Below are positions 39,329 to 44,648 of a DNA stretch of 64,000 nucleotides, one piece after another; positions within the stretch are counted from its first letter, which is position 1, and each line of letters starts with the position of its first letter. Under the pieces are notes generated by a model. That model ran no database searches. It was not told where the DNA came from and was given only the letters and a program-made list of their open reading frames with translations. The translations under genes were made by a program, and so were the position numbers. Source of the DNA: Candidatus Poribacteria bacterium (lineage in GTDB: Bacteria; Poribacteria; WGA-4E; WGA-3G). The stretch spans positions 1 to 64,000 of the forward strand of contig JAPPBX010000038.1 in the NCBI GenBank assembly GCA_026702755.1, written 5' to 3'.

Positions 39329-39354
39329 AGTGCGAGGCACGAAGACCTCGCACT
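39329..39354 (-). terminator. Rho-independent terminator of the HMA selenoprotein genes
   Basis: AGTGCGAGG and CCTCGCACT form a 9-bp GC-rich stem with an 8-nt loop. On the minus strand it is followed by TTTCTATTTT, so it terminates the leftward HMA transcript. Confidence 0.65.
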
Positions 39355-39419: not shown

Positions 39420-39737
39420 TTACTCAGCTGTTTTCGCGGTAAAACCTGCACCTTCAACAGCCTTTACGAGCGTGTCCGTTTCGACCTTGCCCTTCTCAAC
39501 CTTCACAACGGCTTTATTCTCAGCCATAGAAACACTGACAACCTCAGAGACACCCGTAACCTTTTTGAGTGCTTCCTGCACCTTACCGGTACACATACTT
39601 CACGTCATTCCAGTCACGGTCAGCGTCACTTCTTCAATAGTTGCTTCAGCGGTTTGCTGTTGGTTGTCTGCACACGCGGCCACGAATAAGAGTGCGGCGA
39701 GGCAGATAAATACAATTCCGGCGTTTAACTGACGCAT
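39420..39737 (-). CDS. HMA-domain lipoprotein, predicted selenoprotein (GMTUxxC)
   Basis: Reading through one in-frame TGA (39600-39602, codon 46) gives a 105-residue heavy-metal-associated (HMA) lipoprotein. Residues 1-22 are a signal peptide with lipobox FVAAC. The HMA motif normally reads GMTCxxC, and here it reads GMT-U-SMC with the TGA exactly at the first metal-ligand Cys. The HMA fold continues after it (KVQEALKKVTGVSEVVSVS, AVVKVEKGKV, LVKAVEGAGFTAK). A SECIS-like hairpin lies 18 nt after the TGA. The neighbouring paralogue shares the same arrangement. It probably binds a soft metal or acts in thiol/selenol redox chemistry at the envelope. A frameshift or pseudogene is unlikely given the intact downstream half. 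Confidence 0.85.
39569..39581 (-). promoter_or_regulatory. SECIS-like hairpin after the HMA UGA (gene 1)
   Basis: On the mRNA strand GUGC-AGGAA-GCAC forms a 4-bp stem with a 5-nt loop containing G at its second and third positions, 18 nt downstream of the UGA. Bacterial SECIS elements place such a G-containing apical loop about 16-37 nt after the UGA. The same bases occur at the same distance in gene 2. Confidence 0.65.
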
Positions 39738-39801
39738 AGGTCTATCCCTCTTATTTGTAGAGCGATTTCCTGTCGCTCCTCTTCAACTTTATCTATAAAC
39801 A

Positions 39802-39828
39802 GGAAAGGTGGGTAAAGCCCACCCTTCC
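39802..39828 (-). terminator. Terminator-like hairpin between the HMA genes
   Basis: On the minus strand GGAAGGGTGGG and CCCACCTTTCC form an 11-bp stem (one mismatch) around CTTTA, followed by a moderately U-rich TGTTTAT. It may end or attenuate the transcript from gene 2 before gene 1. Confidence 0.5.
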
Positions 39829-39845
39829 GGTTAAGCGGTTAAGCT

Positions 39846-40142
39846 TTATTCAGCGACTTTGGCGTCGAAACCTGTATCTGTAATGACCTTGGCGACTTTG
39901 TCAGCTGAAACTTTACTCTTCTCGATCTTTACAACGGCTGTATTGCTCTCATCAGAGACGCTTACCACTTCAGTCACACCGGGAGTGTTCTTGAGTGCTT
40001 CCTGCACTTTGCTGGTACACGCGCCTCACGTCATGCCCGTGACATCGAACGTTACTTCTTGGATCTTTTCACCGAAAAGTCCACAACCGACCATGAAGAC
40101 AAAGACAACGAGAAAGATCAGCGATAATCTTGCGATATGCAT
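39846..40142 (-). CDS. HMA-domain lipoprotein, predicted selenoprotein (GMTUxxC), paralogue 2
   Basis: Reading through TGA at 40026-40028 (codon 39) gives a 98-residue lipoprotein. It has a signal peptide with lipobox FMVGC, then an HMA domain where the metal motif is GMT-U-GAC, again with TGA at the first Cys. The HMA fold continues with SKVQEALKNTPGVTEVVSVS, VVKIEKSKV and KVAKVITDTGFDAK. The two proteins are clear paralogues, and both keep the UGA and the same downstream hairpin, which argues for selenocysteine rather than error. GGAGG precedes ATG 40142 and a promoter lies 31-59 nt upstream. A short spacer with a hairpin separates it from gene 1. Confidence 0.87.
39995..40007 (-). promoter_or_regulatory. 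SECIS-like hairpin after the HMA UGA (gene 2)
   Basis: The mRNA has GUGC-AGGAA-GCAC (extendable by an A-U pair) 18 nt after the UGA, identical in sequence and spacing to gene 1, although the surrounding codons differ more. Confidence 0.65.
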
Positions 40143-40172: not shown

Positions 40173-40201
40173 ATTTTAACACGTATTAATTTTTTTGGCA
40201 A
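40173..40201 (-). promoter_or_regulatory. Promoter of the HMA selenoprotein genes
   Basis: On the minus strand TTGCCA (40201-40196), a 17-nt spacer and TAAAAT (40178-40173) lie 31 nt before the ATG of gene 2. Confidence 0.6.
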
Positions 40202-40256: not shown

Positions 40257-40586
40257 TTACCGTCGACGATAGCCTGCCTGCTCTGATAGCGCGTAGAGTT
40301 GGGAATTTTTCATGAAACGAATATCCTGTCCTCGCAATTTCCGTCCATACCGCTTTTCCAAGAATTGAATGCGTTCCTGTCGGTCGGGGAGCGGCATCCG
40401 TTTAGGGGTCTGCATTTTGAGCAATTCCTCACGTGATATTTTTTTCGGAGATGTAGGTGCTTGTGGTTTATTATAGTAGCATTTGGGGCATACGGCATAA
40501 CGCGGATAGCGGAGCCGACCGCAGCGGCAACGTGCTGTTCCATCGGGCCCACCGAGGGGTTCTTTCTGTATTTTTTCTGTTGCCAT
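40257..40586 (-). CDS. Zinc-ribbon protein of unknown function
   Basis: The 109-residue protein has a CxC...CxxC zinc ribbon (ARCRCGRLRYPRYAVCPKCYY) after a short N-terminus. The rest is basic and helical (PKKISREELLKMQTPKR, RQERIQFLEKRYGRKLRGQD). No family name can be given. I placed the start at ATG 40586, six bases after GGAGG, so its ribosome site sits just before the end of the upstream nuclease gene (stop at 40591-40593). This suggests cotranscription with that gene and possibly a nucleic-acid-related role. Confidence 0.65.
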   Translation of the reverse strand: MATEKIQKEPLGGPDGTARCRCGRLRYPRYAVCPKCYYNKPQAPTSPKKISREELLKMQTPKRMPLPDRQERIQFLEKRYGRKLRGQDIRFMKNSQLYALSEQAGYRRR

Positions 40587-40590
40587 TGGG

Positions 40591-41331
40591 TTACCTCCGA
40601 TGCACATCTAAAAACGTAAAGACCTTTTGAATCCGTTGGAGCTGCCTTTGAAACGCAGCAGCACGCTCAAATTGAAGTGCTTCGGATGCGCGGTCCCGCC
40701 TTTCAATCAGACTCGTCTCCACCTTTTCATACGCGCCGTCAAGTAGGTTGACAATATCCGTTATGGTTTCTCCATAGGCTTCGCGCGTGATGAGTGCCGC
40801 ACAAGGAGCATCACAACGCTTCACATGGTATTGGAAACAGGCACGAAATCCTGGAACCGGTGTAATTTCCCCTTCGCATGTGCGAACTGAGAAAATCCGC
40901 TGTAAAATATCAATCGCTTCGTCTGTCCATCGGCGACTCGACAGCGGACCGAAATATCTCGCGCCATCCGGTTGTGTTTCAGAAACCCGTTCAAGTCGTG
41001 GAAAAGCCTCTCCGACATCTATCCGAATATACCAAGATGACCGCCCATACTTCATGGCGGTGTTATAGGAAGGTTGATGCTCTTGAATCAGGCGTGACTC
41101 TAAGAAGAGTGCTTCCTGCTCTGAACGACACACCTGATAGCGCACATCTGTCGTCCATCGGATGAGTCTTTTAATTTTGCTTGGGCGTTTTTTTACCTTA
41201 TGGAGGTAGGAGTGGACCCGCTTCCGTAGACATTTTGCTTTACCGATATAGAGGATCGTCCCCGAAGCCCCTCGAAAAAAGTAGACACCTGGATCCGTAG
41301 GTACATCGGCGACCATTTCTCGCGTTAGCAT
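40591..41331 (-). CDS. GIY-YIG nuclease, short UvrC/Cho-like
   Basis: The 246-residue protein has the GIY-YIG fold of the UvrC N-terminus: GVYFFRGASGTILYIGKAKCLRKRV, with the conserved Arg and YxxxxxxE region (CRSEQEALFLESRLIQEHQPSYN). It also has a UVR-like helical tail (ASEALQFERAAAFQRQLQRI). It lacks the RNase-H-like endonuclease and HhH domains of full UvrC, so it resembles Cho, which makes a 3' incision at bulky DNA damage. The conserved Cys-rich segment FRACFQYHVKRCDAPCAA is also present. The zinc-ribbon gene follows immediately. Confidence 0.85.
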   Translation of the reverse strand: MLTREMVADVPTDPGVYFFRGASGTILYIGKAKCLRKRVHSYLHKVKKRPSKIKRLIRWTTDVRYQVCRSEQEALFLESRLIQEHQPSYNTAMKYGRSSWYIRIDVGEAFPRLERVSETQPDGARYFGPLSSRRWTDEAIDILQRIFSVRTCEGEITPVPGFRACFQYHVKRCDAPCAALITREAYGETITDIVNLLDGAYEKVETSLIERRDRASEALQFERAAAFQRQLQRIQKVFTFLDVHRR

Positions 41332-43997: not shown

Positions 43998-44648
43998 ATG
44001 CAATCTAAACTGATAAACAATCGCCTCATAAATTTTGGGGGACACGTGCAGTTTTCGTGTCCGGTTAATTCAGTATGCTTTTTAGTTCTATTGGCGGCTG
44101 TCGTTTTCTTATGCCTTGCTTGCGACAACGCAGAGCGTGCAACAAACATTATAACAGCACCCGAGGACGCAGCCGAGCAACTCCCGCCCGGTGAAGGGTT
44201 AGATATCGGGGCACTCGCCCCTGAATTCACGCTTCCAGATGGCGATGGGAAATCCCGTAGTCTGTCGGAATACCGCGGACAGAAGTTGGTTATTGTCTTC
44301 TATCGCACTGGCACGTGAGGCACCTGTCAAGCGCAACTCGGTGAGTTGCAAGACGGTTATGGAGACATTCAAGCTGAAGGTGCCGAACTGATTGCCATCA
44401 GTGCCGATCCGCTGGCTATTGTTAGTTCAGTACAAGAGAAGCTTCAAATCACCTATCTCTTACTCGCGGATGAAGACACGAAGACGATCGCTGACTATAA
44501 TGTCGTTGATCCAAGTGAAATCGAGGTCGCACGTCCAGCGACCTATATTATTGATCAGGATGGGCGTGTCGCGTGGAAATACCTTGACGCGAAGAGCGGT
44601 AAACGCATCGGACCTGATCCGATTGTCGCACAGTTAAATAAATTTTAA
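43998..44648 (+). CDS. Lipoprotein peroxiredoxin/redoxin, predicted selenoprotein (UxxC)
   Basis: Reading through TGA at 44316-44318 (codon 107) gives a 216-residue protein. It has a signal peptide (FLVLLAAVVFLCLAC) with lipobox, then a thioredoxin-fold redoxin: GALAPEFTLPDGDGKSRSLS, VIVFYRTGT-U-GTCQAQL, GAELIAISADP, VARPATYIIDQDGRVAWKY. The TGA occupies the peroxidatic or first Cys of the CxxC motif, giving UxxC. A textbook-like SECIS hairpin follows. Both halves share one frame and form one family-length protein, so a truncation is unlikely. It probably reduces peroxides or disulfides at the envelope. The first start at 43998 is followed by about 20 extra N-terminal residues. Confidence 0.88.
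44333..44349 (+). promoter_or_regulatory. SECIS-like hairpin after the peroxiredoxin UGA
   Basis: GCAACUC-GGU-GAGUUGC is a perfect 7-bp stem with a GGU loop, beginning 14 nt after the UGA so the loop lies 22-24 nt downstream. This matches the bacterial SECIS rule of a short G-containing apical loop at 16-37 nt. Confidence 0.75.

Follow-up and report, generated by a model that had tools for sequence, protein, structure and literature searches.

Two adjacent genes in the genome of a sponge-associated bacterium (Candidatus Poribacteria) encode lipoproteins in which an in-frame TGA stands where the first metal-ligand cysteine of an HMA domain is expected. How this codon is read, and what the resulting proteins would do, are the questions raised by the locus. 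The reading that we favour, with a probability of about 0.85, is that the two products, A and B, form a pair of selenoproteins, exported and lipid-anchored, whose Sec/Cys HMA domains would bind soft metals. Taken separately, decoding of the UGA codons as Sec appears almost certain, and the metal role is rather probable.

A pair of lipoprotein genes with in-frame UGA codons

Genes A and B are both encoded on the minus strand of the window, that is, the whole stretch of 64,000 nucleotides that was analysed. Their features are as follows.

39846..40142, minus: gene B, predicted Sec-HMA lipoprotein, 98 aa, lipobox MVGC(20), motif GMTU39GAC42; transcribed first
40026..40028, minus: in-frame TGA of gene B (putative Sec39)
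39994..40008, minus: SECIS-like hairpin of gene B, agtgc-AGGAA-gcact; gap from UGA to loop 22 nt; frozen synonymous codons, low dS
39420..39737, minus: gene A, predicted Sec-HMA lipoprotein, 105 aa, lipobox VAAC(22), motif GMTU46SMC49; second of the pair
39600..39602, minus: in-frame TGA of gene A (putative Sec46)
39568..39582, minus: SECIS-like hairpin of gene A, ggtgc-AGGAA-gcact; gap from UGA to loop 22 nt; frozen synonymous codons, low dS
40173..40201, minus: possible sigma-70-type promoter of gene B, TTGCCA-17-TAAAAT (pattern match only)
39802..39828, minus: terminator/attenuator-like hairpin between genes B and A (pattern match only)
39329..39354, minus: terminator-like hairpin 3' of gene A (pattern match only)

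When TGA is read as Sec, both ORFs end at TAA, and a good ribosome binding site precedes each of them. Codon 46 of gene A and codon 39 of gene B fall exactly where GMTCxxC has its first ligand, and both genes retain the second Cys. A first-pass annotation had described this adjacent pair and held that the HMA fold continues intact past the TGA. Both statements are borne out: with Cys put for U, the Pfam HMA profile (PF00403) gives 42.4 and 44.1 bits, above its cut-off of 24.8, and in each gene the TGA falls inside the match. Score, GMxCxxC motif (with Sec for the first Cys) and beta-alpha-beta-beta-alpha-beta fold all agree with HMA membership. In the AlphaFold model of protein B, which has this fold with a mean pLDDT of 81.7, Sec is located in the metal loop directly before helix 1. 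The best PDB match to the model is MerP 1osd (TM-score 0.93 by target length, 38% identity). Throughout the aligned set, the G, M, T and second Cys of GMT-[U/C]-x-x-C are invariant. The lipoprotein signal is also shown by sequence: a lipobox of strict pattern occurs in 76 of 82 sequences and a near-match in 5 of the 6 others. Genes A and B are paralogous. Orthologues of gene B with TGA are found in genomes G049, G060, G068, G079 and G081, and near-identical genes in the Candidatus Poribacteria MAGs PCPOR1 (L059) and PNGco_C_binSS2 (L138). Standard gene calling should truncate Sec-HMA genes at the UGA.

Selenocysteine machinery and genetic code

The source genome (5.84 Mb, 126 contigs) carries selB (351 bits), with a tRNA-Sec gene (78 bits, anticodon TCA) about 120 bases after it, as well as selA (598 bits) and selD (356 bits). 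The last of these has its own in-frame TGA at the catalytic site:

L026 1399-2442, minus: selD, itself a selenoprotein gene (VKCAGUASK)

Thus, selA, selB, selC and selD are all present. In the phylum, 76 of 85 genomes have selB and 72 have tRNA-Sec. In the window, TGA is the terminal stop of 3 of the 38 long genes and therefore has not been reassigned. These observations bear on a selenium-free reading, in which a suppressor tRNA or a reassigned code would place Trp, Cys or some other amino acid at the UGA. Cys would indeed be the residue expected at the site. However, the use of TGA as a normal stop in the window, the complete Sec machinery and a conserved hairpin that is lost specifically in Cys-encoding domains (see below) make this reading extremely unlikely.

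Conservation of the TGA codon

An HMA profile search of the source genome revealed a third gene of this type, in which the domain forms the C-terminus of a PSCyt1 and WD40-repeat protein:

L006 1477-3108 (G000:C37), minus: PSCyt1 + WD40 + C-terminal Sec-HMA (GMTUGAC)

When 85 genomes of the phylum were searched, TGA-HMA genes were found, by our own count among the matches listed, in at least 72 of the 73 genomes of the order. Among these matches, the family accounts for at least 58 of 59 genomes (all but G035), and the genomes of the same order outside the family for 14 of 14. TGA at the same position was found at 112 distinct sites in relatives, a recurrence which argues that it is not due to chance. 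A same-strand tandem pair is seen in 34 of the 61 stretches inspected, mostly in the same neighbourhood. The codon at the site is TGA or Cys in relatives, apart from rare paralogues that have lost the motif. TGA-HMA genes were absent from 8 non-Poribacteria genomes, a small sample biased by its choice for good Cys matches.

This conservation refutes the idea that the two TGA codons reflect pseudogenes or assembly or sequencing errors. It is true that decay occurs in the family, as illustrated by a motif deletion (L201) and by GMTR or GMPR paralogues. Nevertheless, the presence of TGA at the same codon in at least 72 of the order's 73 genomes, together with a dN/dS of about 0.2 downstream of the TGA, leaves this explanation a probability close to nil. 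Sequencing error is further disfavoured because several carriers of TGA-HMA genes are one-contig assemblies (G080, G082, G083, G084). The first-pass annotation had dismissed errors on the ground that two independent ones at the same codon are improbable. This argument is weak for paralogous genes, and conservation across genomes takes its place.

Translation past the UGA and a SECIS-like hairpin

Purifying constraint was compared on both sides of the codon. For the lipoproteins, mean dN divided by mean dS gives 0.19 ahead of the TGA and 0.22 past the hairpin, and the corresponding values for the WD40 fusions are 0.12 and 0.19; these figures are descriptive, since pairs too diverged for correction were dropped and the remaining pairs are non-independent. 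Judged from these substitution patterns, the sequence 3' of the UGA is translated.

A hairpin lies 17-32 nt 3' of the UGA, typically AAAGUGCAGGAUGCACUU, and fits the general bacterial SECIS model quoted in PMC13188914. A single-sequence SECIS score was rejected as a discriminator, real sites not being separated from other TGAs of the window, of which 20% equal the A and B sites. Because a lone match of this kind is weak, the case was built on comparison. Firstly, dS drops two- to four-fold, from 1.37 and 1.25 in codons past the hairpin to 0.57 and 0.32 in those within it. Codons of the stem are frozen, with GTG for Val in 109 of 110 cases (background 24%), GCA for Ala in 110 of 110 (background 32%) and CAG for Gln in 102 of 102 (background 47%), while Val codons outside the stem vary freely in the same sequences. 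Secondly, the top pair of the hairpin changes from A-U to G-C in a compensatory manner in 6 of 45 distinct hairpins, and 98% of cells are paired. Thirdly, the Sec and Cys domains of multi-HMA ORFs share a near-identical peptide (KVQDAL). The hairpin is kept in the Sec domains and broken in the Cys sister domains, largely via synonymous changes (GTT, GTA). In a domain tree, which is shallow and leaves deep forks unresolved with its 71 alignment columns, the Cys domains of multi-HMA ORFs are nested within the Sec group. This nesting points to loss of Sec in favour of Cys, followed by decay of the hairpin, in these sister domains.

Once the three comparisons are joined, the case for a SECIS element under selection 3' of the UGA appears strong. 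A Rfam scan at the gene pair returned no known RNA family. The SECIS of E. coli fdhF is also a small GC-rich hairpin with a G in its apical loop and similar apical letters. The hairpin described here differs from it by a loop of 3-5 nt located about 23 nt from the UGA, inside the general model of PMC13188914.

As regards the first-pass annotation, its choice of selenocysteine as the best reading is upheld by the machinery, the conservation and the selected hairpin. The checks it had put forward gave all four sel genes, TGA or Cys as the codon of relatives (rare paralogues having lost the motif), and a SECIS-like hairpin under selection after the TGA, weak as a single-sequence match. It had seen the Sec-HMA pair and had missed the third HMA gene, a Sec-peroxiredoxin gene 4 kb away and the multi-Sec relatives described below.

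Multi-Sec relatives, fusions and variant copies

Several relatives encode secreted poly-HMA proteins with 4-5 HMA repeats, in which 3-4 Sec codons are followed by 1-2 terminal Cys domains. The Sec/Cys pattern is UUUCC in G029 (L174), UUUUC in G076 (L176) and UUUC in G028 (L177), G072 (L217) and G048 (L218). The repeats measure about 70 aa and are highly alike; therefore, they probably arose by recent tandem duplications. According to a 2026 review of prokaryotic selenoproteins, most families have one Sec and a few have 2-3, the latter number being the maximum in nearly all multi-Sec families (PMC13188914).

With 3-4 Sec codons per ORF, it may be imagined that selenium itself, instead of metals, is stored or delivered by exposed, Sec-rich HMA domains. 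Selenoprotein P of animals, a multi-Sec protein, offers a parallel. However, most copies have a single Sec in an intact metal loop, and the last domains of the arrays revert to Cys with CxxC kept. A selenium store or carrier is thus considered very unlikely.

Variant copies were also observed. In family f3, the PSCyt1-WD40-HMA fusion has Cys at the site and a degraded hairpin (L140, L141). One lipoprotein copy (L201, genome G062) has lost the TGMTUxxC segment by an in-frame deletion, the rest of the domain being intact. In the lipoprotein paralogues L212 435-932 (minus) and L176 4756-5250 (minus), GMTR or GMPR replaces GMTU, and these HMA-like proteins may have lost the metal site. Finally, in two genomes (L191, L192), the Sec-HMA lipoproteins of family f4 have a UxxxC spacing (GMTUGISC), with the hairpin moved by one codon; this spacing counts against the preferred reading.

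Neighbourhood of the pair and possible function

The conserved neighbours of the pair are PhyH dioxygenases, a glycosyltransferase, a PRPP synthetase, a phosphoglycerate mutase and a GIY-YIG protein. The surroundings of the pair, related neighbourhoods included, were also searched for a mer or cop operon, and none was found. The following features were noted nearby.

43998..44648, plus: AhpC/TSA peroxiredoxin-like lipoprotein, FYRTGTU107GTC, TGA at 44316-44318, 4 kb from the pair
44333-44349: SECIS-like hairpin of the peroxiredoxin gene, gcaactc-GGT-gagttgc
40257-40607, minus: small Cys-rich zinc-ribbon-like protein, without Pfam match; adjoins the pair in relatives too
40591-41331, minus: GIY-YIG nuclease-like protein; adjoins the pair in related genomes too

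Ordinary ORF calling stops the peroxiredoxin-like lipoprotein at codon 107.

In the proposed mechanism, UGA codons 46 and 39 would be decoded as Sec by SelB and tRNA-Sec, with guidance from the hairpin some 23 nt 3' of them. Each product would be exported and lipid-anchored and would have one HMA domain. A selenolate, from Sec, would form the exposed first ligand, and a thiolate, from Cys, the second one, so that a MerP/CopZ-like fold would carry a UxxC site. The likeliest function would be high-affinity, fast capture, buffering or relay of soft metals outside the cytoplasm (Cu+, Hg2+, perhaps Ag+ or Cd2+). The selenolate would be expected to remain deprotonated and to outdo a thiol in recovery from over-oxidation. 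The metal role is favoured because of the HMA fold, the motif, the export and the repetition of the domain. We infer which metal is bound, in which direction it is passed on, that the proteins sit at the cell surface, and that the selected role is metal binding and not redox catalysis.

A redox role keeps some probability, because no metal operon adjoins the pair and UxxC is ambiguous. In this case, the HMA fold would serve as a scaffold for a UxxC pair reducing or isomerising partners at the cell surface, metal binding being incidental. UxxC is a common, classic Sec redox motif, and the Sec-peroxiredoxin lipoprotein gene 4 kb away has homologous ORFs in 23 related neighbourhoods. In addition, the third Sec-HMA is fused to the cytochrome-like PSCyt1 domain, and the closest structural match, MerP, is in its oxidised form. 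Set against these points, the metal loop (GMT-[U/C]-x-x-C) is intact, with its four conserved residues invariant; HMA domains do not have a thioredoxin fold and are established sites of metal binding; and tandem arrays such as those of L174, L176 and L177 are a typical trait of HMA proteins that bind metals. A redox role is therefore held to be unlikely, though a good deal less so than the other alternatives considered here. The PSCyt1-WD40-Sec-HMA fusion would possibly link a cytochrome-like domain to a Sec-metal site.

On a wider scale, Poribacteria may have a dedicated extracytoplasmic Sec-HMA system, in which duplication of ancestral Sec/Cys metal sites would have given rise to the tandem lipoproteins, to the cytochrome-WD40 fusion and to the secreted poly-HMA proteins with 3-4 Sec each. 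This proposal is tentative, at slightly less than even odds. Among the bacterial selenoproteins that have been characterised, redox enzymes form the majority. If such a system exists, selenolate-based capture of soft metals would be one of the main purposes for which these sponge symbionts employ Sec. SelA and SelB are common and co-occurring in sponge symbionts and mostly missing from related reference genomes (PMC5649159); Sec-HMA proteins are a candidate use for them. Sec as a metal ligand in binding domains has been proposed, with roles that need study (PMC13188914). In this respect, the near-identical HMA domains found in Sec and Cys versions within one ORF amount to a natural controlled experiment.

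Comparison with known systems

By all computable criteria, A and B are HMA proteins and bacterial selenoproteins, with an in-frame UGA inside a conserved domain and Cys homologues at the site. Sec is not used at every HMA site of the source genome, since a short CopZ-like gene and a CopA-like ATPase gene are of the Cys type. With CopZ/Atx1 chaperones and the metal-binding domains of CopA, the pair shares fold and motif, and matches to several CopZ models are significant; scores nevertheless stay at or below 60.8 bits, under the cut-offs of 85-95 (NF047957, NF033794, NF033795), and A and B would be exported whereas CopZ/Atx1 are cytosolic. MerP (TIGR02052; 1osd, 1afi) has in common with them an extracytoplasmic single HMA domain and GMTxxxC, and is the nearest solved structure. 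However, the present proteins are lipid-anchored, have Sec for the first Cys and have no adjoining merR/T/A; they reach 44.7 and 43 bits against a cut-off of 92.55, and mer gene context was lacking in the neighbourhoods examined.

Among curated selenoprotein models, the UxxU metal-binding selenoprotein (NF041115) is also HMA-like, whereas A and B have Sec at the first position only (54 and 48 bits against 95; above cut-off in none of the 85 phylum genomes). The MerT/CopZ fusion selenoprotein (NF045683) likewise places Sec in a heavy-metal transport protein. It is a membrane transporter whose MerT part is required, unlike the stand-alone lipoproteins described here, which match its C-terminal part only (48 and 39 bits against 375). 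The E1-E2 cation ATPase selenoprotein (TIGR01525) shares UxxC and is again a membrane transporter instead of a lipoprotein. No curated selenoprotein model among those tested covers the Sec-HMA lipoproteins. The Global Ocean Sampling selenoproteome includes two 'MerP' sequences with Sec (PMC2398784). The first-pass annotation, right as to Sec, had overlooked such precedents in MerP-like and P-type ATPase HMA sites. Thus, the kind of protein is known, if sparsely; within the literature searched, what is new is the lipoprotein form, the conservation across an order, the WD40-cytochrome fusion and the arrays of 3-4 Sec.
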